This document shows positions 30,390-42,520 of a DNA stretch of 43,055 bases, in pieces. The notes beneath the pieces are model-generated. The model worked only from the letters and a program-made list of their open reading frames with translations, ran no database searches and had not been told where the DNA came from. The stretch spans positions 1 through 43,055 of the forward strand of contig JAJPKO010000008.1 of the NCBI GenBank assembly GCA_021323655.1, read 5' to 3'. The position numbers were made by a program, and so were the translations under genes. Origin of the DNA: Acidobacteriaceae bacterium. GTDB lineage: Bacteria; Acidobacteriota; Terriglobia; Terriglobales; Acidobacteriaceae. Positions within the stretch are counted from its first letter, which is position 1. Each line of letters starts with the position of its first letter.

Positions 30390-31154
30390 TTACTTCGCGC
30401 GCGACGGATCTGCATAGTGCTCTTCAAAATTCGGGCTCTTCAAGGCAAACGGGTTGAAATCCGTTCGCGCATCGAATGTATCCGCTCCCTCTGAGCGCTT
30501 CAGGTAAGCAACCACGAGATAAGTCACCGGAGTGGCCACCGTCTCATAAATTACCTTTGTCAGATACGACCAGAAAATCACGCTGACCATCGTCCGCCAC
30601 GGCGTTCCCCAGAACGCAATCAGAATAATGGTCGCTGTATCCACCGCCTGTCCTGTCACCGTCGAGCCTATGGTTCGCGTCCAAAGCCAGCGCCCCTTGG
30701 TAAGCAGTTTCAACTTCGCAAGAGTATAGGAGTTCGTAAACTCCCCCGCCCAGTAAGCAATCAGGCTGGCTGCTGCAAACCGAGGCACCAGTCCAAAGAC
30801 CCTAGCAAACGCCTGTTGGTCGTGCCAATCACTTGCTGGAGGAAGCGCAACCGTAATTGCCCCCATCACAGAAAGCAGCGCCATAGCGAAAAATCCAAAC
30901 CAGATGGCCCTACGCGAAGCGGCATAACCATACACCTCAGTAAAAACATCGCCGCATATATAGGTAATCGGAAAGAGAAGCTGCGCGCCGCTTATCCGAA
31001 TCGCTCCCAGTTCGCGCAAAACAGGCACATCATAAGGCCCAAACTGGCAAATTTTGGGCCCAATCAGGTTCGAAACCAGCAGGACCACCACAAACCCGAT
31101 CGTCAAAACATCCAGATATTTGTATTGCCGCATGGAATCCACAGAATATCGCAT
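30390..31154 (-). CDS. Queuosine-precursor transporter (YhhQ/VUT family, DUF165)
   Basis: 254 residues with about six transmembrane helices. Family landmarks are VLLVSNLIGPKI in the first helix, LLFPITYICGDVFTEVYGY (the acidic D-x-x-x-E-V-Y-G motif), FGFFAMALLS, VDTATIILIAFWG and the helix VIYETVATPVTYLVV. Members import preQ0 or preQ1 for queuosine in tRNA. The ATG at 31154 lacks a good ribosome-binding site; the one at 31133 (MRQYKYLDVL) has GGA nearby and matches typical family N-termini, so the true product may be 247 residues. It converges closely (13 bases) on the glycosidase gene. No preQ1 riboswitch is visible upstream. Confidence 0.9.
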   Translation of the reverse strand: MRYSVDSMRQYKYLDVLTIGFVVVLLVSNLIGPKICQFGPYDVPVLRELGAIRISGAQLLFPITYICGDVFTEVYGYAASRRAIWFGFFAMALLSVMGAITVALPPASDWHDQQAFARVFGLVPRFAAASLIAYWAGEFTNSYTLAKLKLLTKGRWLWTRTIGSTVTGQAVDTATIILIAFWGTPWRTMVSVIFWSYLTKVIYETVATPVTYLVVAYLKRSEGADTFDARTDFNPFALKSPNFEEHYADPSRAK

Positions 31155-31284
31155 TCACCGAAAAGATTCGGACAAAACCGTGCGCGCGACTGCGATCTGC
31201 TTTTTTTGACACAACGGCCCACGATTGATACCCTCATAGAGGTACTTCCTGTCTGGCTACGCAAATCAACGGCCATCCAACAGC

Positions 31285-31362
31285 GTCCCCGTCGTCTAGC
31301 CCGGCCTAGGACACCGCCCTTTCACGGCGATAACACGGGTTCAAATCCCGTCGGGGACGCCA
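31285..31362 (+). tRNA. tRNA-Glu (anticodon TTC)
   Basis: The 78 bases fold as a tRNA: acceptor GTCCCCG pairs with CGGGGAC, and the D arm begins GTCTAG. The anticodon loop is CTTTCAC with anticodon TTC, the T arm is ACGGG-TTCAAAT-CCCGT, and CCA is encoded at the 3' end. It closely resembles the E. coli tRNA-Glu. The integrase gene begins 61 bases beyond its 3' end, which marks it as the insertion site of the mobile element. Confidence 0.96.
31336..31362 (+). other. Probable attachment site (attL) in the tRNA-Glu 3' end
   Basis: The T arm and acceptor 3' strand of the tRNA lie directly before the integrase gene, the usual crossover target of tyrosine integrases. The element restores an intact tRNA here, so a direct repeat of part of this stretch is expected at the far end, outside the window. 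The exact core cannot be fixed without that copy. Confidence 0.55.
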
Positions 31363-31423
31363 AATCCTTTCAATGACTTAGCCCGAATCCCCTGTTTTCG
31401 CCGAGGAGCTTTTTGGGGAGCAG

Positions 31424-32695
31424 TTAAGCCCCCATTACAGCCGGTTGTGGCAAGGAGTGCGGTGCCCGCACCATTTCCACGACCTTCTGCTGTGCCGCCC
31501 GTTTTGCGGGCATCTGCGCCTGTGCGTAGATGTCCAGAGTGATGCGAGACGAGCTGTGACGCAGGAGTTCCTGCACTACTTTGACATCTTCATGGTTTGC
31601 CTGAAGAAGCGTCGTGTAGGTGCGCCGGAACGTGTGCCACGAGACCCGCTTGCTGATCCCCAGCCGTTTGATTACTGGCTGGATGTGGTAGCGCATGATG
31701 GTCTGCAACCAGAGCGGCTGCTTACCGCGCTTCTTGCCCGCGCGTGCGCTATTTGAAGCAAAGACCCAATCATCCGGCTGATGGTACGGCGTGAACCGAT
31801 ACCAGGCCAGCAGATCCTGTGCCGTGTATTCATCGAGCGGCACCGGCTTCTGCGACGCCTCCGTTTTGCAGCGGCCCACCACCTGACTCACGACCGACTT
31901 GTTGACATCGATCTGCAGATTCTCGAAATCAAGGTCCTGCCACTTGAGTCCGGCCAGTTCGCCGCGCCGCAGCCCGGTTGCCATGTCCAGAAACAGCAAG
32001 ACACGTTCCCGCAACTGCAATTCAGCGACGATAGCCTGCATCTCCGCGACTTCGAGGATATCCGGAATGCTCTGCCGCTTGGAACTCTGGCGGACACCGG
32101 AACCTCTCACCGGCCCCGTGATTGGGTTTCGATCCGTGAACTCCCACCGGATCGCGTGGTTGAAAAGCACACTCATCAGATTGCGAATTTTGGCCTTCGA
32201 TGCCGGAGCAAGAGGCTTCAGCATTTTCTGCTCCCGCTTGGCAGGCTGCTGCTTCTTTCGCTTACGCGGTTTCTTCACCAACTCGCCCAGCCATTCCTCC
32301 ACCAAAGGCGTCTTGATCGCGGCAAGTTCCTCTTTGCCCCATCTCGGCTCGATCCAGCAGCTGAGATAGCTCGCATAACGGTGTCGCGTCGACCAGGCGC
32401 GACCCTCCTCGCCCTTGTCCGCCATTTCCTTCATGCGAAAGTGATCGATGACGTCCTGCATGGTGATTCCGCTGAATGCGTGTACCTGATTGGAGTTGAT
32501 GGCCAGCCGCCAACTTCGCACCGCTCTTTCTGCCGCGGCCTCCGTCTTGTACTGGTCAAGGGTGCCCACTTGTCTCTTTCGGCGAACGTGCTTTCCGTCA
32601 GGCAGGATATGCCACCAACTGAATTTCCAGACCGGCGTCTTGCTTCCGTTCACGTCCAGATAAAGGGAGCCATTTTGCTTCCGCGCCTTCCTCAT
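31424..32695 (-). CDS. int: Tyrosine integrase of the element
   Basis: 423 residues from the ATG at 32695, fixed by a strong AAAGGAGG site; a longer in-frame start exists but lacks one. The N-terminal arm- and core-binding domains span about 1-200. The catalytic domain carries Arg243 (ATGLRRGEL), Lys278 (RCKTEAS), His354-x-x-Arg357 (HTFRRT), His380 (LLRHSS) and the nucleophile Tyr390 (TLDIYAQ). All catalytic residues are present, so it should be active in integration and excision. The gene points toward the tRNA, the classic arrangement. The Lys/Arg-rich insertion at 141-160 is characteristic of this subgroup. It lies 180 bases after the excisionase-like gene on the same strand. Confidence 0.95.
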   Translation of the reverse strand: MRKARKQNGSLYLDVNGSKTPVWKFSWWHILPDGKHVRRKRQVGTLDQYKTEAAAERAVRSWRLAINSNQVHAFSGITMQDVIDHFRMKEMADKGEEGRAWSTRHRYASYLSCWIEPRWGKEELAAIKTPLVEEWLGELVKKPRKRKKQQPAKREQKMLKPLAPASKAKIRNLMSVLFNHAIRWEFTDRNPITGPVRGSGVRQSSKRQSIPDILEVAEMQAIVAELQLRERVLLFLDMATGLRRGELAGLKWQDLDFENLQIDVNKSVVSQVVGRCKTEASQKPVPLDEYTAQDLLAWYRFTPYHQPDDWVFASNSARAGKKRGKQPLWLQTIMRYHIQPVIKRLGISKRVSWHTFRRTYTTLLQANHEDVKVVQELLRHSSSRITLDIYAQAQMPAKRAAQQKVVEMVRAPHSLPQPAVMGA

Positions 32696-32875
32696 TGAAA
32701 CCTCCTTTCGCTGAGGGCGCAGAATGCATCGGTAGTCTGAATGTAACTCCAATCACCCCTATATTGAAGACATGAGATCGCTGTATTTCTGGCCCCTTCC
32801 GAACGGTGGCCGAGAGAGCCTGCATGAAGAGGAAACTGAGTTTTTGAGCGCATCAAGCATCCACGCATCACACCT
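32696..32875. other. Gap between integrase and excisionase-like genes
   Basis: These 180 bases hold the integrase ribosome-binding site and a possible integrase promoter. I see no convincing gene, repeat or terminator. Confidence 0.4.
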
Positions 32876-33109
32876 TCAGTTCGCATAGCCGGAGGTCCCT
32901 CCATGCCTCTCCCGGAGCCACTCTCGAAGCTCCGTCAATAGAAATCGCCAGTGCTTGCGCTTGCCTTGCTGGACCGGATGCCCAGGTAATACTCCGTTGC
33001 GGGCCAGGCGCTGAACCGTCACGGGATGAAGTCCGAGAAATTCACCAGCCGCCGCTGCGTCGACGAAAGGCTCCAAACTCGTGAGAAACGTTGAAGTTGA
33101 ATTCCGCAC
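32876..33109 (-). CDS. Excisionase-like helix-turn-helix protein
   Basis: The GTG at 33109 with GGAGG six bases upstream is preferred over an ATG at 33157, which lacks a site. It gives 77 residues. The core FVDAAAAGEFLGLHPVTVQR is a MerR/excisionase-type winged helix-turn-helix, followed by the wing GKRKHWRFLLTELREWLRE. Such proteins bend DNA at attachment sites and direct integrases to excise. Its gene lies upstream of the integrase on the same strand, so it is likely the recombination directionality factor. An inverted repeat overlapping its promoter hints at control of excision. Confidence 0.8.
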   Translation of the reverse strand: MRNSTSTFLTSLEPFVDAAAAGEFLGLHPVTVQRLARNGVLPGHPVQQGKRKHWRFLLTELREWLRERHGGTSGYAN

Positions 33110-33144
33110 GGTCGACCTCCATCCAAAGCCCTCAACCAATGCAC

Positions 33145-33183
33145 ATTGAGCAATCAAAGTAGAACCTGCTCAATAGAGGTCAA
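33145..33183 (-). promoter_or_regulatory. Promoter and operator-like inverted repeat for excisionase/integrase
   Basis: On the minus strand TTGACC (33178-33183) and TACTTT (33156-33161) are 16 bases apart, a plausible promoter for the excisionase gene 47 bases further on. The perfect 8-bp inverted repeat ATTGAGCA/TGCTCAAT (33145-33152 and 33167-33174) has a 22-bp centre spacing and overlaps it. Two helical turns between half-sites fits a dimeric repressor that silences excision. Confidence 0.45.
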
Positions 33184-33226
33184 GAGCCTGTAAACCAAAG
33201 GTAGGAGCTGCCCTCACGTGGACGTT

Positions 33227-33266
33227 ATGCTTTTTCGGGGGTGGGGTATGCAGATTCTGCATACCC
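33227..33266 (+). repeat. 40-bp inverted repeat, left copy
   Basis: The copy consists of ATGC, a T-tract, a G-rich tract (GGGGGTGGGG) and a perfect palindrome GGGTATGCAGA-T-TCTGCATACCC (33244-33266). It matches the copy at 34570-34609 in the opposite orientation at 37 of 40 positions. It lies upstream of the methyltransferase gene. Confidence 0.8.
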
Positions 33267-33669
33267 GTCTGAGCGGCGATAAGCTATTTGTTTTTCCGCT
33301 CTTATCTGTCGGAGTGAATCATTCTCTGTGCATTTCGCTGAAGACCTGCCTTGTGCTGAACAGGTGAATGACTGGCCCGTTTGTTCGGAAGCCTGCAAGC
33401 AAAGATCGATCCCTGTGTGCTCCGTGTTCTCTCAGGCACCGCGAGAGAAAGCAGGCTGCGCCCTGCGCCGGAAAGATTCTGCTTCGCATGGGTCAGGTAG
33501 AACACAAGCAATCCTTAGAAATGAGTCTGGCCCATGCGCCCTGCGGGTTTCGGTTCCCCCTGAAGGTTCCTCCGAAAAAGCATCTTCCCGCCTTGGGAGC
33601 AGCCATCTCTCGCGCCCTCCGGGGGTGTCCTGAGAGATCACTCCGGGACCACAAAGGAGATCGAAGATC

Positions 33670-34407
33670 ATGCAGACCATCCAAAACAATCAGACCAACC
33701 AACTCATCAACACCATCGCGCAGGGAGATTGCATCGAGGTCATGCGTCAGATGCCCGCGAACAGCATCGATTTCATTCTGACCGATCCGCCGTATCTGGT
33801 GAACTTCCGCGACCGCACAGGCCGCACGCTGCAAAATGACACCAGCTCTGACTGGCTCAGGCCCGCGATGAAGGAAGCATATCGGGTACTCAGAAACAAT
33901 CGCCTGATGCTTTGTTTCTATGGCTGGCCGCGCGCGGAGAAGTTCCTCGAAGCGTGGCGGGAAGCGGGTTTCCGGCCTGTCGGTCATATGGTTTTCCGCA
34001 AATCCTACACAACAAAATCGACCGAGTTTCTCCGCTACCAGCACGAGCAAGCGTACCTGCTGGCAAAAGGCCGTCCGGCGATGATAGGCCAGCCAGTCGC
34101 GGATGTGCAGCGGCTGCTCTATACCGGCAACAGGCTCCACCCTACGCAGAAAGCTGTGATGTCGCTGATACCTGTCATCCGCGCTTACTCGCTTCCCGGA
34201 GATGTAGTGCTGGACGCATTCTGCGGCAGCGGCTCAACCTGCGCGGCTGCATTGTTGACGGGCCGCAAGTACATTGGCATTGAACTGGATGCTGAGTATC
34301 ATCGCGCGGCAAGCGAACGGATGGAGCGTGTAGAGGAGAGGATCGCAAGAAGGTCCTCTCCTTCCTTCCCGACCGGGTGCATTGTATCCGCGCCGCAGCG
34401 CGCGTAA
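33670..34407 (+). CDS. Orphan DNA methyltransferase (beta type, N6-A or N4-C)
   Basis: 245 residues. Motif IV TDPPYLVNF (DPPY at 39-42) precedes motif I DAFCGSGST (about 182-190), which binds S-adenosylmethionine. That order defines the beta class of amino-methyltransferases. HPTQKAV (about 157) is the usual motif X. DPPY favours adenine-N6 methylation, with N4-cytosine as an alternative. No restriction endonuclease gene is adjacent, so it is an orphan that may protect the element from host restriction during transfer or mark its own control sites. An AAAGGAG site precedes the ATG. The gene is flanked by the two inverted 40-bp repeats. Confidence 0.9.
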   Translation: MQTIQNNQTNQLINTIAQGDCIEVMRQMPANSIDFILTDPPYLVNFRDRTGRTLQNDTSSDWLRPAMKEAYRVLRNNRLMLCFYGWPRAEKFLEAWREAGFRPVGHMVFRKSYTTKSTEFLRYQHEQAYLLAKGRPAMIGQPVADVQRLLYTGNRLHPTQKAVMSLIPVIRAYSLPGDVVLDAFCGSGSTCAAALLTGRKYIGIELDAEYHRAASERMERVEERIARRSSPSFPTGCIVSAPQRA

Positions 34408-34569
34408 AGGCGAACCATCTCCTGAGTCGTTGTCCTCGCCGCCTTGACTCGCGCCACGGTGCGGTTTTCTTTCCTGGCCACGTCGGGAAGGAAAGGTTTG
34501 GCAGTTCCTCCTCTGCCGTCCGGCGCGGCGTATACCCGGCGTTTGCAGCCCTGCCATCACGAAATTCGA

Positions 34570-34609
34570 GGGTATGCCGAATCTGCATACCCCACCCCTC
34601 AAAAAGCAT
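34570..34609 (-). repeat. 40-bp inverted repeat, right copy
   Basis: This is the reverse-oriented partner of the copy at 33227-33266 (three mismatches). Its palindrome GGGTATGCCGA-A-TCTGCATACCC (34570-34592) has one mismatch. It lies 89 bases upstream of the pilin gene that starts the secretion operon, so it may be a regulatory site for that operon. Confidence 0.8.
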
Positions 34610-34697
34610 TCGACGGCGCCGGGGACCGCCCCTACATTCGCTCCATCCGTTGCAGCCGGGAGTGCCTACTCGCCGGAAGTGCACAGGAAAGGAGAGC

Positions 34698-35024
34698 ATG
34701 AGAGCCAGCATTCACATTCGATCCCCTCGTCTCCGGCGTTGGCAGGCGCGCGCCCGGAGGCTGACCATTCCATCCCTGATCCTTCTCGCGGCGCTGCCGG
34801 TTTATGCCCAGGCCGGCAGCGATCCGTGGGACAACGCAGTAAACGTGCTCAGGGCCGCCTTCACCGGCCCCATTGCTACAGGCCTGTCTCTGGTCGCCAT
34901 CGTGGTGGGCGGGCTGATGTTCGCCTACGGCGAAGGCCAGTCTAAGCGCATGCTCGCCGGGATCGTCTTCGGCATCGGCATGGCGGTCGGCGCCGTGAAC
35001 TTCATGGCCTGGCTCTTTCCGTAG
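34698..35024 (+). CDS. virB2: VirB2/TrbC-type conjugative pilin
   Basis: 108 residues from the ATG at 34698 (AAAGGAG just upstream). A long basic signal sequence ends LPVYAQA. The mature part of about 70 residues has two hydrophobic helices (FTGPIATGLSLVAIVVGGLMF and GIVFGIGMAVGAVNFMAWLF), separated by a polar turn (EGQSKRM). This is the standard VirB2/TrbC major pilin. It is inserted in the inner membrane, then extracted to build the conjugative pilus. It is the first gene of the secretion operon. A 106-base gap with hairpin potential follows, unlike the tight spacing of the rest. Confidence 0.88.
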   Translation: MRASIHIRSPRLRRWQARARRLTIPSLILLAALPVYAQAGSDPWDNAVNVLRAAFTGPIATGLSLVAIVVGGLMFAYGEGQSKRMLAGIVFGIGMAVGAVNFMAWLFP

Positions 35025-35048
35025 CAGCCGCTGACGGCAGGCCGGGAT

Positions 35049-35077
35049 CCCCACGGACCAGGTCTTTGTCGGTGGGG
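35049..35077 (+). promoter_or_regulatory. Stem-loop between pilin and virB3 genes
   Basis: CCCCAC pairs with GTGGGG and an inner GACC with GGTC. The downstream GGGGTGGGAGACCCC can form an alternative hairpin. There is no T-run. Such a structure could reduce read-through or stabilise the pilin message, raising pilin above the downstream proteins; this is inference. Confidence 0.35.
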
Positions 35078-35130
35078 TGGGAGACCCCGACCACAACCCA
35101 ATCACTCGACAGGCAGAAAGGAGGTTGCAG

Positions 35131-35547
35131 ATGGCAGCGGGCGGCTTTCGACAGAACAAAGTTTATAAGGCGATGAACCACCCGCTGACCGTTCTCGGCG
35201 CGGAGCGAAGACTGTTCTTTGTGGCACTCATTGCCGGAGGCGCGGTCTTCTCGCTGATGCACTCGCTGTTCGGAGGCATCGGCCTGTTCATCGTCGGCGT
35301 CATGATCGCCCGCCTTGCTACCAAACACGACGTGGAGATTCTGCGCGTGCTGTTCAACTCCGGCAAGTTCCGCCGCCGCTACGACCCCATGAAACCACTG
35401 CGTGGAGCAGACGCACTCACGTGCGTGCAGTTGCCCTCCCGCTCCACCCCAGCGCACAGCAATCATGCGCCGGGGACCCCGGTCTGGTCGGGAGAGGGAT
35501 TTGACGATAGCCAACTACGAATTGTGAGGCGACATGCTCAGAATTGA
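35131..35547 (+). CDS. virB3: VirB3/TrbD-type inner-membrane protein
   Basis: 138 residues from the ATG at 35131 (AAAGGAGG upstream). The N-terminal KVYKAMNHPLTVLGAERRLFF is the VirB3/TrbD hallmark, followed by two membrane helices (FVALIAGGAVFSLMHSLF and GIGLFIVGVMIARLAT) and a basic segment. It anchors the VirB4 ATPase at the inner membrane. It is longer than typical (about 100 residues) owing to a hydrophilic tail. The last 14 bases overlap the virB4 gene. Confidence 0.88.
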   Translation: MAAGGFRQNKVYKAMNHPLTVLGAERRLFFVALIAGGAVFSLMHSLFGGIGLFIVGVMIARLATKHDVEILRVLFNSGKFRRRYDPMKPLRGADALTCVQLPSRSTPAHSNHAPGTPVWSGEGFDDSQLRIVRRHAQN

Positions 35548-38008
35548 CGCCATCACCAAGGACTGGAAAGAAGCTGGCTCGTTTCCGGCGCAGATTAACC
35601 TGTACGGGTTCTGGGACGAACACGCTTTCCTGACCAAGTCCGGCGACCTCGGCTCCGTGCTGAAGATCGGCGGCATCGACTACGAGAGCCTCGATCACGT
35701 CGGCAGGGATTATGCGATCAAGCGCCTCGAAGCCGCTCTGCGCTCACTCGATGACAGGTGCCGTCTCTACCAAATCCTGTTCAAGCACAACCGGCCATCC
35801 ATCCCACACGCCGAGTATACGAATCCGCTGGTCCGCGCCGCCGTCGAGCAGCGCGCGGCCTTCCTCCAGTCCAAAGCCGACCGGCTGTATTCCATCGAAA
35901 TTGTCTGGGTGGTGATGATCGACGGCAACTATGCCAAAACCGGCCTGCTGCACGCCCTCGCCACACTGCCGAAGCAGCCGCGTTCGTCGCTCCGCGACAT
36001 CCGCGCTCTGCTCTCGGGCAACCAAGAGAGAACGCTCATCTACGAGCAGATCGAGCGCGACCGGCTGCGTCTGCAGCAAAAAGTTCAGAGCTTGAGTGGG
36101 CAGTTGAACGAACTGATGACGGTCACGCTGCCAGGGGCGGAAGAGACGTTTCGCATACTGCGCCGTCTCGTCAACTTCCGCCCCTCGAAGACTGAAAATG
36201 CGCGCCTGTACAGCGCGCGGCAGATCGACTATCAGCTATGCGATTCGGAACTGGAGGCGCACCGCGGCTATCTGCGCATGGATGACGATTATCTCCGCGT
36301 CCTGACGCTGAAAGAGCTTCCCTCCGAGACGCGGTCCCTCATCCTCAACGGTCTACTGGACATTCCCGCCAACTTCCACGTTGTCACGGAATGGCATCCG
36401 GTCGATAACGCCAGAGCGCGGAAAGAGATCGCATCGCGCCGCCGCCATCACCATAACTCGAAAACCAGCTTCGTCTCGAACCTGCAGGACCGCCAGAGCA
36501 TGGGGCCAAAGGACGAGCTGGTCGATGACTCGAAAGAGGCCGCCGTTGCCGAGCTTGGCGCCGCGCTGACGGCGCTCGGCATGGAAGGCAAGAACTTCGG
36601 GGAGTTCACGCTGTCGGTCGTGACCTACGACGAAGGCCGCATGAAGGTAGAGCACGCGGTCGCCGAGTTCCAGAAACTGTTCACGCAGCACGACGGCCTG
36701 CTCTACGAGGAACGCTACAACCTGCTCAATGCGTTCTTTGCGACGATTCCTGGCAATCGGCAGTTCAACCTGCGTAAACAATGGGCGCTGAACTCGAACT
36801 ATGCCGACCTGTCCTTCCTGTTCACCATCGATTCCGGCTCGAAGTGGAATCCGCAGCTAGAGCGCGAATACCTTGCAGTCCTCGAATCGACGCATGGCAC
36901 GCCCTACTACCTGAACCTGCATTGGGGCGATGTGCCCAACGCCTTCATCCTCGGCGCTATCGGGAGCGGCAAGTCGTTCACCACTAATTTCATTATCCAA
37001 TCGGCGCAGAAATATAACCCGCTGACCTTCGTCTTCGACCTCGGCGCCAGCTATGAGATGCTGACTCGCTCCTTCGGCGGGAGCTATCTCAATGTCGGCC
37101 TGAAAGACCCGGGGTTCACGATCAATCCGTTCTCGCTGGAGCCGACGCATGAGAACCAGAATTTTCTTTACTTGTTCCTGCGCGTGCTGATCGAAGCGGG
37201 CGGGCGCTACGACCTCACGCCGGAGGATGAAAAAGCCCTCTTCGCCGGCATCGAGCGTGTCTACAAGCTGCCCCGCGAGATCAGGACGCTGACCAACTTC
37301 GCGTCCATCCTCGGGCCTTTGAGCGAGCGCCTGCACCGCTGGCTCCAGTCCGGGCAGTTCGGCTACCTCTTCGACAACGTCGAGGACACACTTACGTTTT
37401 CCCGCTTCCAGACCTTCAACTTCGACGGTTGGGACAAGTACCCCGACGTGCTGGAGCCGATGCTGTTTTATCTCTTGCAGCGGGCGGCCTCGGAGATCGA
37501 GAAGAAGCAGAACATCGCCACTTTCAAACTGTTCGTCATCGACGAGGCGTGGATTTTCTTCAAACGCCAGATCATCCACGACTGGGTCATGCGGGCGGAG
37601 AAGACGTGGCGGAAGCTGAACGCTTCCATGATCCTGACCACACAATCGATGATAGAGCTGGTCTCGAACAACCTGCTGCAACTGGTCAACGAGTCCTGCC
37701 CAAGCCGTATCTTCCTTGCCAATCCCGGCATCGACCGCAAGCTGTATGCCGAAGCCTTCCAGTTGAACGACACCGACCTCGAGCTGCTCGAATCGCTTGT
37801 ACCCAAGCGTGACCTGCTCTTCAAGCAGCCGCAGTATGCGAAAAAAATGCGTCTCTCGGTCGATCCGCTGAGTTACTGGATGGCGACCAACACGCCCCGC
37901 GACAACATCCTCAAGCAGCAATACTTCGCCCGCTACGGGCCGGAACAGGGACTCCTGCGTCTGGTCCAGGACTATCCCGATCCAACGCAAACTGAGGTGA
38001 ATCGATGA
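35534..38008 (+). CDS. virB4: VirB4/TrbE-type secretion ATPase
   Basis: 824 residues, the usual VirB4/TrbE length. The C-terminal RecA-like domain has Walker A GAIGSGKS (474-481) and Walker B LFVIDEAW (Asp670). Further motifs are LTTQSMIEL and the late PSRIFLANPG. The N-terminal half (about 1-450) matches the CagE/TrbE/VirB family (GSVLKIGGIDYESL). The ATPase powers pilus assembly and substrate transport at the inner membrane. The GAGGCGAC before the ATG and the 14-base overlap with virB3 suggest coupling. The stop overlaps the virB9 start (ATGA). Confidence 0.96.
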   Translation: MLRIDAITKDWKEAGSFPAQINLYGFWDEHAFLTKSGDLGSVLKIGGIDYESLDHVGRDYAIKRLEAALRSLDDRCRLYQILFKHNRPSIPHAEYTNPLVRAAVEQRAAFLQSKADRLYSIEIVWVVMIDGNYAKTGLLHALATLPKQPRSSLRDIRALLSGNQERTLIYEQIERDRLRLQQKVQSLSGQLNELMTVTLPGAEETFRILRRLVNFRPSKTENARLYSARQIDYQLCDSELEAHRGYLRMDDDYLRVLTLKELPSETRSLILNGLLDIPANFHVVTEWHPVDNARARKEIASRRRHHHNSKTSFVSNLQDRQSMGPKDELVDDSKEAAVAELGAALTALGMEGKNFGEFTLSVVTYDEGRMKVEHAVAEFQKLFTQHDGLLYEERYNLLNAFFATIPGNRQFNLRKQWALNSNYADLSFLFTIDSGSKWNPQLEREYLAVLESTHGTPYYLNLHWGDVPNAFILGAIGSGKSFTTNFIIQSAQKYNPLTFVFDLGASYEMLTRSFGGSYLNVGLKDPGFTINPFSLEPTHENQNFLYLFLRVLIEAGGRYDLTPEDEKALFAGIERVYKLPREIRTLTNFASILGPLSERLHRWLQSGQFGYLFDNVEDTLTFSRFQTFNFDGWDKYPDVLEPMLFYLLQRAASEIEKKQNIATFKLFVIDEAWIFFKRQIIHDWVMRAEKTWRKLNASMILTTQSMIELVSNNLLQLVNESCPSRIFLANPGIDRKLYAEAFQLNDTDLELLESLVPKRDLLFKQPQYAKKMRLSVDPLSYWMATNTPRDNILKQQYFARYGPEQGLLRLVQDYPDPTQTEVNR

Positions 38009-38757
38009 ACCGTGTCCCGATCTTCCCATTGGTGCTCGGCCTGATTGCCGCCGTCGCGCACGGCCAGCAACAGGCCCGCATCGTCCACTACCACCAGAAC
38101 GACATCGTCTCGATCCGGGCGCGGATGCGCTACACCACTTTGATCGAGCTGCCTCCGACCGAAAAGATCATGGAAGTCGCCACTGGCGACAAGGACTTCT
38201 GGATCATCGACGCGGTCGGCAACTACTGCTTCCTGCATCCTGCCCAGGCAGGCATTCACAGCGACCTCAACCTGATTACCGATAAGGGTAATGTCTATTC
38301 GTTCCTACTGGACGATGACGAGTCCGCCGAGCCGGACCTGAAGATGGTTATCGAGCCGAGCGACCCGTCCTCCATCGCCGCGTCGAATGGCGCAACCAAG
38401 TGGGTTCCAGCCTCGGAAGTTTCCACGCTCGAAACACAAGCCAAAGCGGTGCGGCTGCACGACGCCAATGCAGTTGAAGCGTTCCGCGCCAACTACCCGA
38501 CTCAGAAATTGAAGTTCGATTACCACTACAAAAATGACAAGCTGTTTGCTGTATCCGCCATTTACCGCGACGACAAATTCACTTACATCAAGTCCACCGC
38601 CTCGGAAAAGTTTGCTGTTTACGAAGTAAAAGACGGCAAGCCCGACCTCATCAATTACCAATTCGAGGACGACACCTACGTCATTCCCCAGGTGGTGAAC
38701 AAAGGCTACCTCCAGATCGGCAAGCACAAGCTCACCTTTGAGCGGAAAGGGAAATAG
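38005..38757 (+). CDS. virB9: VirB9/TrbG-type outer-core protein
   Basis: 250 residues with a signal peptide ending AVAHG. The N-terminal domain shows the family pattern IRARMRYTTLIELPPTEKI, then ATGDKDFWIID. The C-terminal domain ends FEDDTYVIPQVVNKGYLQIG and LTFERKG, as in VirB9 and TrbG. It forms the outer ring of the core complex with VirB7 and VirB10. The ATG overlaps the virB4 stop by four bases and follows GAGGTGA. The small lipoprotein encoded further down would be its VirB7 partner. Confidence 0.92.
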   Translation: MNRVPIFPLVLGLIAAVAHGQQQARIVHYHQNDIVSIRARMRYTTLIELPPTEKIMEVATGDKDFWIIDAVGNYCFLHPAQAGIHSDLNLITDKGNVYSFLLDDDESAEPDLKMVIEPSDPSSIAASNGATKWVPASEVSTLETQAKAVRLHDANAVEAFRANYPTQKLKFDYHYKNDKLFAVSAIYRDDKFTYIKSTASEKFAVYEVKDGKPDLINYQFEDDTYVIPQVVNKGYLQIGKHKLTFERKGK

Positions 38758-38765
38758 GTGCTCCG

Positions 38766-40007
38766 ATGGCAGAGGAAAAACAGACGCCGCAGCCAGATGT
38801 TCCTCAAGTCACGCCAGCCGCGCAGGTGCGCGACAAGCGCATCCTGCCCGAAGGCGTGGTGCCCAAACAGGCGCAGGCGTATGTCGTCGCCGCCCTCGCG
38901 CTTTTGATTCTGATGGCAGTGCTGTTCTCGAAGAATCATGCGCGGCCCTCGCCGAAGGAACCGGCGCCTACTCCAGTCTCGGTGTCGAATGACATGAATC
39001 AGCAGCGGATTCACGAACTGGAGCAGGACCTGAGCGCCGACCAGCGCCAGAGCCAGCAACAGGCCCAGGCGCCGATGTCCGGCGCGACGGCAGTGGCGGG
39101 AAGCGCAGCGTCTGGGAGTGGAGCGGCTCAGACCAATATCAATCCTGCCGGACCGTCACAGGAGCCTGCGCAGCCTCCCCGCGATCCGATTGCCGACGCG
39201 GAAAAGGCGCTGGCCTTCAAAGCGCGCTTTGCCTCGAATCTTGTCACGTCTGCCGGGACCACGGCATCGGCAGGCGGCGACGTGAATGTGCAGGCGAATC
39301 ATCCCCATGCTTCGCCGGCGAATCGCCCTGAAGATTTACCACAACAGGCTTCTGCTTCGCAGACCGCCGCTGCCGCCAGCAAACGCGCCCCTGAAGTCAA
39401 CATCGACAGAGCGCATGGCCGCCCCTATGTAATCTTCGAGGGCGTCACCATCGACACCGTGCTGACCAATCGGCTGGACAGTGACTTTGCCGGGCCGGTC
39501 AAGGTCATGGTCACCAATCCCGTTTACAGCCGGGACCGTCAGCATGTGCTGATTCCGGCAGGCACGTTCATTCTCGGCAATGCGCAGAAGATCGGCTCGA
39601 TGGGCCAACGGCGGCTGGCCGTCGCCTTTCACCGTATGATCATGCCCGATGGGTACTCAGTCGACCTCGATCAGTTCCACGGTCTCGACCAGATCGGCGA
39701 CACCGGCCTCAAGGATAAGGTCAACAATCACTACCTCGAAATCTTCGGCGCGAGCATCGCGCTCGGCGTGATCGCGGGTGCAGCCGAGTCCACCACCTAC
39801 GGCAACGGCTACACCCTGAGTGGCCCCTCCATGTACGAGCAGGGCATGGCTTCGAGCCTGTCGCAATCGAGCGCGGACGTTCTCGACCGTTTCATCAACA
39901 TCCCGCCGAAGATCACCATCCGCGAAGGCCACCGCATCAAGGTTTATCTCACCCAGGACATGCTCCTTCCCGCGTATGAGGACCACGACATGCCGGGGGT
40001 GATGTGA
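38766..40007 (+). CDS. virB10: VirB10/TrbI-type core protein
   Basis: 413 residues. A cytosolic N-terminus is followed by one transmembrane helix (AYVVAALALLILMAVLF, about 39-55). A Pro/Gln/Ala-rich periplasmic linker follows (60-210). The C-terminal VirB10 barrel domain carries FEGVTIDTVLTNRLDSDFAG, VLIPAGTFILGNAQ and GHRIKVYLTQDMLLP. It spans both membranes and senses ATP use by the inner complex. The end overlaps the next small gene by one base. Confidence 0.94.
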   Translation: MAEEKQTPQPDVPQVTPAAQVRDKRILPEGVVPKQAQAYVVAALALLILMAVLFSKNHARPSPKEPAPTPVSVSNDMNQQRIHELEQDLSADQRQSQQQAQAPMSGATAVAGSAASGSGAAQTNINPAGPSQEPAQPPRDPIADAEKALAFKARFASNLVTSAGTTASAGGDVNVQANHPHASPANRPEDLPQQASASQTAAAASKRAPEVNIDRAHGRPYVIFEGVTIDTVLTNRLDSDFAGPVKVMVTNPVYSRDRQHVLIPAGTFILGNAQKIGSMGQRRLAVAFHRMIMPDGYSVDLDQFHGLDQIGDTGLKDKVNNHYLEIFGASIALGVIAGAAESTTYGNGYTLSGPSMYEQGMASSLSQSSADVLDRFINIPPKITIREGHRIKVYLTQDMLLPAYEDHDMPGVM

Positions 40008-40144
40008 TGCGCTTGGCTTCGCTCGCGCTTCTCGTGCTCCTGGTTGGCTGCGCCTCCCCCGCGCCGAAGAAGCCCTCTCCCTATCGCTACCCAACCCACG
40101 CGCCGTTGCTTGCGCTCGGCGCTCATAGAAAGGAACTGCCATGA
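40007..40144 (+). CDS. Small lipoprotein, VirB7-like or entry-exclusion-like, 45 aa
   Basis: A 45-residue frame encodes a signal peptide with lipobox LLVGC (Cys15), then a short polar chain (ASPAPKKPSPYRYPTHAP). It starts one base into the virB10 stop and overlaps the virB5 start by four bases (ATGA), so it is firmly built into the operon. Length and lipobox match VirB7 lipoproteins, which anchor VirB9 in the outer membrane; a TrbK-like entry-exclusion protein is the alternative. Easily missed because of its size. Confidence 0.7.
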   Translation: MRLASLALLVLLVGCASPAPKKPSPYRYPTHAPLLALGAHRKELP

Positions 40145-41010
40145 CTCACCGCAGACTGTTTTTCCCAGGCTTCGCTCTGCTGTTTGCGCTTACGCCTCTT
40201 GCGCACGCGCAATTCGGCTCCGGCATCGTCTACGACCCGACCCAGAGCGTCCACGCCATCGAGCAGATCCGGCAGGGTGTGCAACAGATTCAGCAGGCCC
40301 AGCAGATCTACACCACCGCCTACACCACCATGAACCAGGTCATCGCAACCTACAACCTTGCCTACCAGATGTCGCGGATGCCGCAGGACCTCGCCGCACG
40401 CTATCAGTCCGATTTTTCCCTGTGGACCAACTTCTCGTCGGCTTCCGCTCCCGACACCTATGGCAACACCTCCGCATGGATCAACGCGCTCGATCTCGGC
40501 AACCCCACGCGCGCCACGTCCGCGTACAACAATGCCGTCATTCCATTAGAGAGCTATCCGAGCGGCAGTCTGTCGCAACAGGACGTCAACACCCAGGCGG
40601 CCATCAAGAACCAGTACGCGTCGTCGGAACTCGGCCAGGCCACGCTGACCCAATCGCTCGCGACGCTCGGCACGATCCGCGCCGACTCCGAGACCTTCCA
40701 GCAGAAGCTGGCGAACCTCCAGGCCGACACTTACTCGACTGACCCAAACCAGCAGACCTCGAACGCCCTGCTCGGCAAGATCAATTCCTCAACCGTGCTC
40801 GAGATTCACTCCCAGCAGGACACCAACCAGATCCTCGCCGCCGAGGCCGCGCAGCAGGCACTCGACGAGAAGGAGCAGTTGGACGAGCGCAATCGGCTCA
40901 TCAACCAGTCGATCTACTTCCAGCAGAACTTCCCCACGCTGATCGAGAGCATGACCTCCGGCGTGAGCGATTCCATCCACTCCGTCTCTCTTTCAACGAC
41001 AGGACACTGA
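40141..41010 (+). CDS. VirB5/TrbJ-type minor pilus protein
   Basis: 289 residues with a signal peptide ending TPLAHAQ. The body is rich in Gln, Ala and Ser and mostly helical. It has an early coiled coil (IEQIRQGVQQIQQAQQIYTT) and a late one (EAAQQALDEKEQLDERNRL), as in TrbJ/VirB5 proteins that sit at the pilus tip or base. A conserved enzymatic motif is absent. AAGGA lies before the ATG, which overlaps the small lipoprotein stop. Family assignment is by architecture and position between VirB7-like and VirB6-like genes. Confidence 0.8.
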   Translation: MTHRRLFFPGFALLFALTPLAHAQFGSGIVYDPTQSVHAIEQIRQGVQQIQQAQQIYTTAYTTMNQVIATYNLAYQMSRMPQDLAARYQSDFSLWTNFSSASAPDTYGNTSAWINALDLGNPTRATSAYNNAVIPLESYPSGSLSQQDVNTQAAIKNQYASSELGQATLTQSLATLGTIRADSETFQQKLANLQADTYSTDPNQQTSNALLGKINSSTVLEIHSQQDTNQILAAEAAQQALDEKEQLDERNRLINQSIYFQQNFPTLIESMTSGVSDSIHSVSLSTTGH

Positions 41011-41013
41011 GCC

Positions 41014-41838
41014 ATGCAGCCAAACCCCTTTAGCGCCTTAAACCAGGCGATCAGCCAACTGATTACGTCGAACAGTCCCGCATTGGAGGCTACCGGGTTC
41101 GACATCTTCCGCGGCCTGGCCGTGATTCTGATCGCCTGGTTCGGCATAAAATCCGCCCTTTCGGCATCGCAGGGACACGGCGGCGGCTTTCATTTCGCCA
41201 GGTTCGCGGACCTCATTCTGATGATCTCCTTCGGCCTCGGCATGCTGACCTATTACTCCACACCCATTCCCGGCGTGGGCTTGAGTTTCAGCGACCTCGT
41301 GACCAAGGAAGCTCAAAATATCTCGAACCAGATCGAATCGGACCAGACGCAGCAGATCGCCAACACGATCGTCAACGCCGAGGAGCAACTCGGCGCCCCG
41401 CCCGGCAAATACAGCATCCTCGAAGACCTGACTTACCTTCTGATCGCTGTGATTCTCGCTGCAATGGAGGCTGTGGCCTTCGCCGTGATTGCCTACGGCC
41501 TGGTCGCCTCGGCGGTCTGCGTGCTGGTGGGGCCGATGTTTATTCCCTGGTTCATCGTGCCCAAGATGGACTGGCTCTTCTGGGGGTGGTTCAAGGCCTT
41601 CATCGGCTTCAGCTTCTACCAGGTGATCGCCTCGGCCTTCATCTACGTCTTCGCCAAGGTGCTGACGGCGATGTTTCAGGTCATCGGCAAGATCAGCATC
41701 TCGAATGCGCTGACCGTCCTGCCTGCCCTCTTTATCACCCTCATGGTCTGCATCTACGGCCTGGTCAAGATACCGGAGCTGACAGGCGCGATTCTCAGTG
41801 GCCGCGCCGGAAGCTGGGTCAACCCTATGGGGAGTTAA
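41014..41838 (+). CDS. VirB6/TrbL-type polytopic channel protein
   Basis: 274 residues with about six hydrophobic helices: FDIFRGLAVILIAWFGIKSA, FADLILMISFGLGMLTYYS, LTYLLIAVILAAMEAVAFAV, ASAVCVLVGPMFIPWFIV, WGWFKAFIGFSFYQVIASAF and LTVLPALFITLMVCIYGLV. The P-F-x-x-W-F and G-F-S-F-Y-Q-V patterns are common in TrbL/VirB6 proteins, which form part of the inner-membrane translocation path. The N-terminal extension typical of TrbL is short. It starts three bases after the virB5 stop. Confidence 0.85.
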   Translation: MQPNPFSALNQAISQLITSNSPALEATGFDIFRGLAVILIAWFGIKSALSASQGHGGGFHFARFADLILMISFGLGMLTYYSTPIPGVGLSFSDLVTKEAQNISNQIESDQTQQIANTIVNAEEQLGAPPGKYSILEDLTYLLIAVILAAMEAVAFAVIAYGLVASAVCVLVGPMFIPWFIVPKMDWLFWGWFKAFIGFSFYQVIASAFIYVFAKVLTAMFQVIGKISISNALTVLPALFITLMVCIYGLVKIPELTGAILSGRAGSWVNPMGS

Positions 41839-41842
41839 TGCC

Positions 41843-42520
41843 ATGAAGAATACTTCGTTTCAAACTTCGGAAGCCGGACACAAGTTTATCGAGCTATATG
41901 CGGAGCCTGTTGTGACGAACACCTACCTGAAGGTTGCGTTGCTTGTGCTCTCCATCGTCGCGCTCGCCTTGCTTGCGCTCCTCTGGCGCGCCGAGACCGC
42001 TGCCTCGCGGCTGAAGCCGCTAGTTATCTCTGTCTCGGACGTCGGGCGCGGCCAGGTCATGAACTACGACGAGTTCTCGAAGATCCCCATCGATCGCGTG
42101 AGCAAATACTATCTCGCCCGCTGGTGCGAGCTCTACTACGGTCGCAACCATGCGACGTTGCAGCGGGATTTCTCGCAGTCGCTCGATTTCTTCTCGAACC
42201 AGCTGCAGTCCGCCACGCTCCAGCGGGTGAACCAGCAGAAAACCCTCCAGACCTTCCTGCTCGACCCCAGCGCGCCCAACGTGGACATCGAGATCGAAGC
42301 CGTAGTCCTCGAAGACACACGGCAGTCGCCCTATCGCGCCCAGATCGAGTTTCAGAAGGTCTTCCGCTCGCCGGGCGATGGGACAGAGCAGCGGCGGGAA
42401 CGCTGGACTGTGAATGTCATTTACAGCTTCCGCGACCAGGTTCCCAACCAGATGCTGCTCACCAATCCACTTGGCCTCGTTATCAGCTACGTCCATGCAG
42501 ACCAGGCATTCGGGGGTTGA
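41843..42520 (+). CDS. virB8: VirB8/TrbF-type inner-membrane scaffold
   Basis: 225 residues from the ATG at 41843, chosen for GGGGAG eight bases upstream. One N-terminal transmembrane helix (VALLVLSIVALALLALLW, about 31-48) is followed by a periplasmic domain with the VirB8/TrbF pattern. That pattern runs YYLARWCELYYGRNHATLQRD at about 80-105 (shortened here to YYLARWCELYYGRN), then QIEFQKVFRSP and WTVNVIYSFRDQVP. VirB8 nucleates assembly and contacts VirB9 and VirB10. The order of the operon places it after VirB6, unlike the canonical trb order. Confidence 0.9.
   Translation: MKNTSFQTSEAGHKFIELYAEPVVTNTYLKVALLVLSIVALALLALLWRAETAASRLKPLVISVSDVGRGQVMNYDEFSKIPIDRVSKYYLARWCELYYGRNHATLQRDFSQSLDFFSNQLQSATLQRVNQQKTLQTFLLDPSAPNVDIEIEAVVLEDTRQSPYRAQIEFQKVFRSPGDGTEQRRERWTVNVIYSFRDQVPNQMLLTNPLGLVISYVHADQAFGG

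Follow-up and report, generated by a model that had tools for sequence, protein, structure and literature searches.

Twin inverted repeats around an orphan methyltransferase gene as predicted operators of a LysR-type regulator in an integrative and conjugative element of Acidobacteria

The recognition sites of LysR-type regulators (LTTRs) are often found at about -65 and follow the pattern T-N11-A, with T-N10-A and T-N9-A sites also known (described in PMC8407307). LTTRs also act in the transfer of integrative and conjugative elements (ICEs). In the Tn4371 family of ICEs, the LTTR TraR is encoded mostly downstream of the mating-pair genes and in reverse orientation, and a T-N11-A inverted repeat is located just upstream of the predicted xis promoter (as described in PMC11448139). 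Overexpression of TraR increased xis transcripts 80-fold and traG transcripts threefold (PMC11448139). ICEclc possesses TciR, a LysR-type activator that starts transfer of the element via bisR and not directly on Pint (as described in PMC7423338). Methyltransferases (MTases) are also carried by conjugative elements. M.EcoGIX and M.BceJIII are single-strand-specific plasmid MTases, and M.EcoGIX and its homologues are placed among the early-transferred genes (as described in PMC7736820).

The DNA analysed here is a stretch of 43,055 nucleotides from an Acidobacteriaceae bacterium (contig JAJPKO010000008.1), referred to below as the window, in which two inverted repeats bracket an orphan MTase gene. 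These twin repeats are very probably the operators of an ICE-encoded LTTR that would switch on excision and conjugation together. Judged from its description and gene layout, TraR of the Tn4371-family ICEs appears to be the closest known system. As far as the published description of that family goes, both systems have the LTTR gene after the transfer genes and in reverse orientation, and both have a T-N11-A box before xis. They differ in that the traG promoter of the Tn4371 family has a half site only, whereas the window ICE has matching full boxes at both promoters, around the MTase gene. TciR is likewise a LysR-type starter of transfer but acts through bisR, and the part of PMC7423338 drawn on here describes no twin operators. 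The window MTase can be likened, by description, to M.EcoGIX and M.BceJIII as an orphan MTase of a conjugative element. No description of this ICE family or of its twin LTTR operators was found in the open-access literature searched.

The window contains one end of an ICE at tRNA-Glu, and an integrase, a T4SS and att direct repeats at the tRNA are all present. The integration site is the tRNA-Glu (ttc) gene at positions 31285-31362 (plus strand), the 3' end of which makes up a 47-bp att direct repeat (31319-31365, plus strand). A second att copy, without the whole tRNA, is located near position 3300 of contig C4. The window further encodes a tyrosine integrase (31424-32752, minus strand), an excisionase-like HTH_17 protein (xis; 32876-33157, minus strand), the orphan DNA MTase (PF01555; 33670-34407, plus strand) and a TrbC/VirB2 pilin, the first gene of the T4SS operon (34698-35024, plus strand). 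The operon goes on with VirB3, VirB4, VirB9, VirB10, a conserved protein, VirB6 and VirB8 (35131-42520, plus strand), the VirB6 and VirB8 genes being named from homologues in the related ICE G340. Since the last 104 bases of the window are the first 104 of contig C14, and since C14 carries homologues of the remaining conserved genes of the G340 element (a C5-methyltransferase, SSBs, a coupling protein, a VirB11-like ATPase, a lipoprotein-like gene and a LysR-type regulator), the element extends from the window into C14; C4 is likely its far end. The LTTR gene of the window ICE is C14:11785-12735. Pfam recognised no relaxase in the conserved ICE genes to which it was applied, which leaves oriT unplaced. 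Two conserved neighbours of 348 and 346 aa are without a family match (L018:3820-5907 and homologues); the predicted fold of the second starts with a winged helix and gives mostly winged-helix/MarR-like matches, none with E <= 0.001. An Rfam search of positions 31000-35500 gave four matches with E up to 1, of which the tRNA alone reaches the gathering score.

A preliminary description of this locus reported 40-bp inverted repeats, and these are borne out. The copies at 33227-33266 and 34570-34609 stand in opposite orientation with 1303 nt between them and are complementary at 37 of 40 positions (93%), whereas in 20 first-order Markov randomisations of the window, inverted 40-mers matched at no more than 24-28 of 40 positions. 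The T-tract and the G-rich tract that were reported are present in both repeats and are oriented outward in each. A palindrome had been ascribed to each copy as well. The left one (GGGTATGCAGA-T-TCTGCATACCC) is perfect, but the wording was slightly too strong for the right one (GGGTATGCCGA-A-TCTGCATACCC), since one of its pairs is broken. The bracketed gene does encode a DNA methyltransferase, as noted, of the N6/N4 type (PF01555, E 1.4e-34). The Pfam scan between the repeats covered the MTase alone, and no restriction gene was noticed among the ORFs there. The protein exceeds the NCBIfam PRK13699.1 cut-off, and its identity to plasmid 'DNA methylase' genes is 58-59% (the best 12 of at least 5000 records).

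The repeats are not a dispersed element occurring genome-wide, the case that had been named as refuting their significance. When up to three mismatches are allowed, the palindrome matches these two sites only in the bacterium's own genome (4.59 Mb, 65 contigs), and the same count rules out a further copy at the LTTR gene for autoregulation. Matches with up to two mismatches occur in 4 of 399 genomes drawn from the class, the own genome counted. Exact matches to the palindrome pattern were found in five stretches on four contigs of the species collection, and an exact match was absent from the viral contigs. The named records with palindrome matches are Acidobacteria MAGs and Acidobacterium sp. 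S8.

Each repeat is predicted to serve as the upstream box of a promoter directed outward from the MTase gene and not reading into it. The left 40-bp unit (33227-33266, minus strand) contains a predicted LysR-type recognition dyad centred at 33255 and an outward A/T tract, followed by the putative leftward xis/int promoter with the -10 box TACCTT (33198-33203, minus strand; from the motif), 52 nt from the dyad centre. The right unit (34570-34609, plus strand) likewise consists of a predicted dyad, centred at 34581, and an outward A/T tract upstream of the putative rightward T4SS operon promoter, whose -10 box TACATT (34633-34638, plus strand; from the motif) is also 52 nt from the dyad centre. 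The -35 boxes are poor: TTCGAC (34609-34614, plus strand), read by eye 18 nt before the right -10, is a weak match, and so is the left -35 register, TAACGT. When the start is taken as 7 nt after the -10, the dyad centres fall near -64 on both sides of the window, as do those 50-52 nt from a -10 in the related ICEs described below, close to the position common for LTTR recognition sites. An outward T-tract, 23 nt and a -10-like hexamer, in this order, are common to both sides of the window, of the related ICEs G254, G257 and G340 and of JA6 (MAG contig JAJZEA010000020, loci L003 and L006) in an alignment read by eye.

Of 150 genomes drawn from the family, 18 encode window-like MTase proteins, at 29 places in total, and 17 of these places were followed into wider stretches. 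The other 12 were covered as loci of about 3 kb or less (two in G269, four in G482, one each in G462, G364 and G307, and three of the five in G040). A narrow search of these 12 loci gave no bracketing pair in nine and had too short a stretch downstream in three; the narrow search also missed the pairs of G151, G040c5, G484c6, G416c13 and G040c7, which were found in the wider stretches. Among the first 16 regions, 13 have bracketing repeats that score above their own controls and belong to six sequence types. The remaining three (G484c6, G040c5 and G151) showed no pair within the first search range and were resolved later: the pairs of G484c6 and G040c5 were found by a prediction based on their LTTRs, with left copies 4.9 and 7.4 kb before the MTase gene, and the right copy of G151 was beyond the reach of the first search. 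Addition of G040c7 and of G416c10L, an ICE without an MTase match, gave a set of 18 ICEs with 36 sites. The set is composed of 14 of the 17 followed places together with G257, G340, JA6 and the MTase-less G416c10L, and includes the window ICE. Outside it are G026 and G425, where a T4SS is absent from the 40 kb examined, G331, which has a right-hand operator copy only and in which none of the queried integrases matched below E 0.8, and the contig fragments L002 and L004. L005 and L007 duplicate the G254 element and do not add to the count. The MTase gene is directed toward the T4SS in 17 of the 17 MTase-bearing ICEs of the set.

In the 18 ICEs, the distance from the dyad centre to the start of a TANNNT hexamer is 50 nt at 3 sites, 51 nt at 18 and 52 nt at 14, or 35 of 36 sites in all, and only one match is found at other offsets within 40-63 nt. 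The exception is the left site of G484c10, which reads GAGAAT. The motif was picked after inspection of the sites. The spacing also helped to place five centres, namely the two of G459, the two of G416c10L and the right one of G040c7; the remaining 31 sites, with centres set independently of it, give 30 matches. When type I, the operator type of the window, is left out, the hexamer is found at 50, 51 and 52 nt in 3, 17 and 5 of 26 sites. Thus, the spacing rule is independent of the window's own type. Twin operators for divergent control were one of the roles suggested in the preliminary description, and this suggestion is supported by the equal distance of both repeats from an outward -10 box and by the retention of this geometry in 18 ICEs.

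The boxes were sorted into eight operator types. Types I and II are related, having part of the palindrome in common, and the others are not visibly related. The left and right boxes are on average 77% identical within an ICE and 42% identical between ICEs, and the two boxes of G416c10L are only 57% alike. By eye, types I, II, III, V and VIII conform to T-N11-A and types VI and VII to T-N9-A, while type IV (G459) has no clear dyad, with 4 of 11 pairs.

CbnR/BenM/CatM-type LTTRs regulate catabolic operons beside their own LTTR gene. In the window ICE, unlike in these systems, both targets are far from the LTTR gene as long as the ICE is integrated. The solved sequence nearest to the LTTR is 1ixc ('LysR-type regulatory protein', E 1.9e-17), which we take to be CbnR; BenM and CatM match too. 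The LTTR gene is located beyond VirB11 in 16 of the 18 ICEs, and the stretches of the other two, JA6 and G151, end before that point. It is in reverse orientation to the T4SS in 12 of the 16, including the window ICE, and on the T4SS strand in G087, G212, G040c7 and G416c10R.

The LTTRs fall into groups that coincide with the operator types: type I (G000, G254, G257 and G340), type II (G087 and G416c10R), type III (G060, G212, G484c13 and G040c7) and type VI (G416c13, G484c6 and G040c5), the rest being single. Across the 16 ICEs, operator identity follows LTTR identity (Pearson 0.84; partial given VirB4 0.84, permutation p 0.0002), a correlation that cannot fully separate the LTTR from a lipoprotein-like partner gene without a family match (L026:11087-11782, minus strand, and homologues) since this gene adjoins the LTTR gene in 12 of the 16. 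The partial correlation of operator identity with VirB4 given the LTTR is 0.20 (p 0.07; 16 ICEs). When all pairs are ranked, operator and LTTR identities give a Spearman value of only 0.24; it is the related pairs that hold the signal. LTTR pairs that are 67-84% identical have operators with identities of 0.69-0.94, and pairs with LTTRs below 60% never exceed an operator identity of 0.57, a value reached by type I with type II. The most informative pairs combine VirB4 proteins 86-94% identical with LTTRs of 17-39% and operators of 0.26-0.49 identity; the window ICE and G087 are 93% identical in VirB4, 24% in the LTTR and 47% in the operator. The rule was also checked by prediction. In two ICEs with type VI-like LTTRs, for which no repeat pair was known beforehand, perfect GGTGTCC-N5-GGACACC dyads number exactly two over about 40 kb, with outward -10 boxes at the usual distance. 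G040c7 has a type III operator, as its LTTR suggested, and the LTTRs of G416c10R and G484c13 are 67% and 81% identical to those of ICEs with the same operator.

The repeats, their fixed -10 spacing, their conservation, the agreement of operator and LTTR types and the LTTR gene in the same ICE make up the computed part of the proposed circuit; binding by the LTTR, and activation rather than repression, are what we infer. The left unit would drive xis and the integrase gene, and the right unit would drive the T4SS operon. An LTTR tetramer is predicted to occupy the palindrome at about -64 as its recognition site and, when the signal is present, to occupy the A/T-tract/-35 side as well, as an activation site. 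RNA polymerase would then be recruited at both promoters for concerted transcription of xis/int and the T4SS genes, with excision and mating-pair formation at the same time as the outcome. Excision to a circle would bring the LTTR end nearer to the int end. The LTTR, the integrase module, the operators and the MTase would thus be closer neighbours, which may ease their exchange as a block.

The operators could serve both outward promoters in a different manner, with the LTTR mainly repressing or with another LTTR-linked ICE protein reading them. This is unlikely overall. Repression is compatible with the same geometry, but the closest studied relative, TraR of the Tn4371-family ICEs, activates xis and traG according to the account in PMC11448139. 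The conserved lipoprotein-like partner gene described above would be the other possible reader by virtue of its linkage to the LTTR gene; its product has a lipoprotein-like start (by eye) but no DNA-binding match, and the gene is a fragment in G212 and was not found in G060, G484c10 and G459, all three of which have operators. Comparison of an AlphaFold model of the partner (pLDDT 83) with the PDB gave no match with E <= 0.001. The excisionase is also unlikely to be the reader, as the type I operator is also that of G257 and G340, in which nothing matched this xis. An epigenetic switch, in which the bracketed MTase would control binding of the LTTR by methylating the centre of the palindrome, GANTC in the window, is very improbable. 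The centres in the window are GATTC/GAATC, as they are in the other type I copies compared except the left one of G340, and the best solved relative of the MTase is CcrM. However, the GANTC centre is not kept (it is replaced by GATCC in the left copy of G340, and the L002 right box contains GTTTTTT), the centres of types III-VIII are different although the MTase is conserved, and the MTase-less ICE still has two boxes. Control through this centre was rejected, since the centre varies between operator types and even within type I.

Two roles that do not involve a regulator were considered as well, and both had been raised, at least in part, in the preliminary description. It is extremely improbable that the palindromes are part of oriT or of an integrase attachment site. 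They do lie near the T4SS genes and the integrase gene, and no relaxase was identified among the genes scanned, but a nick site does not need two copies with a fixed promoter spacing, and no evidence emerged in favour of a transfer origin. The att repeat is at the tRNA, and the type I operator is found alongside both tyrosine (G000, G254 and JA6) and serine (G257 and G340) integrases, unrelated enzymes, and is therefore not an integrase site; integrase binding and an att site were rejected on these grounds. The idea that the pair forms the ends of a small MTase cassette able to transpose or invert draws on the inverted orientation and on the 1.3-kb spacing in the window and its close relatives, and is scarcely credible. 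No recombinase gene was seen inside, and the repeats differ in sequence between ICE types while keeping their position relative to the int-side and T4SS-side promoters. Their spacing ranges from 0.26 to 8.3 kb with other DNA inside, the MTase gene has the same direction in every MTase-bearing ICE of the set, and the pair also occurs, weakly, in the ICE that lacks the MTase. No constant repeats that move or flip as a unit were seen, and the cassette was rejected.

Under the preferred reading of the repeats as LTTR operators, the MTase gene lies between two promoters that face away from it, and it has a structured leader of about 235 nt (33426-33661, plus strand). The leader forms a covarying rod-like hairpin that also precedes ssb genes across this group of ICEs. 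From 25 leaders (16 MTase and 9 ssb) a profile was built and searched against 20 MTase-bearing regions. It matches before the MTase gene in 19 of them, G425 being the exception, and before ssb in 15, with two pieces in G340 and G484c13; the matches outside the profile members comprise three MTase and six ssb genes. The leader is also carried by L026:3751-3993 and related loci, and one further copy in G484c13 has no core gene downstream. The consensus fold is a long rod of 27 pairs, with 95.0% of pair cells paired compared with 36-51% in slid controls, the structure having been derived from the same alignment on which pairing and covariation were scored. Double-sided changes number 86, against 9-21 in slid controls and a mean of 24.8 in shuffled ones, and 14 pairs have double changes against a shuffled mean of 10.5, with 2 of 500 shuffles as high. 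Pair types are no more numerous than in the shuffles (26 vs 27.4).

G-U pairs are commoner in RNA helices. In the leader they occupy 20 of 633 paired cells, or 8 when one doubtful pair is set aside, and this scarcity hints at pairing in DNA rather than RNA. Folded as single-stranded DNA, the window leader has a z of -6.56 and an ssb leader a z of -4.95. By description, the leader is like the Frpo/ssi single-stranded-DNA promoters in placing a long hairpin immediately before ssb and MTase genes, and unlike them in that no -35/-10 was recognised in the stem (compared with the account in PMC11541004). A search of the stem by eye gave no such elements, and the Frpo comparison therefore remains a lead. 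Going by its sequence, the leader is possibly a single-stranded-DNA promoter or another hairpin element.

A broader joint reading is put forward tentatively and is itself doubtful. The repeats would bracket an 'arrival module', with an outward donor programme controlled by an exchangeable LTTR, recipient genes between the operators, a single-stranded-DNA promoter leader and a swappable specificity cassette. Excision and the T4SS would constitute the donor programme, fired outward from the two operators, and the DNA between them would carry recipient genes, the MTase among them with the leader it has in common with ssb. The leader, folded in single-stranded DNA into a covarying hairpin poor in G-T/G-U pairs, would represent a lineage of single-stranded-DNA promoters unlike the known Frpo, and the LTTR together with both operators would act as a swappable cassette that stops co-resident ICEs from triggering each other.

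The proposed circuit offers a readable and testable scheme of control for an ICE family of Acidobacteria. Near-identical backbones are found with an exchanged regulator and matching operators (VirB4 up to 94%, LTTR 20% and operator 39% identical), and this natural exchange is a ready-made specificity experiment for LysR proteins. Such ICEs can be recognised and assigned to types from their operator sequence. The hairpin leader of the MTase and ssb genes is a concrete candidate for single-strand gene expression beyond the plasmids where it is known.

Several further observations were made on these elements. The G484, G040 and G416 genomes contain co-resident ICEs that are all of different operator types (three genomes, eight ICEs); this pattern has a chance probability of 0.35, and regulatory insulation of co-resident ICEs is just an idea. 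At about 34400-34530 of the window, past the MTase stop codon, the sequence is strongly conserved in a five-way alignment, with no RNA family above threshold. Integrase modules are exchanged among the ICEs (tyrosine integrase and xis vs a large serine recombinase) while the order of the MTase and T4SS genes is constant (L012, L013, L014, JA6 and others). At L002:1788-4859, an insert of other DNA, about 2.4 kb long, separates the first 36 residues of the MTase homologue from the rest, and L004:776-2740 has about 2 kb of additional DNA between trbC and virB3 compared with other ICEs.
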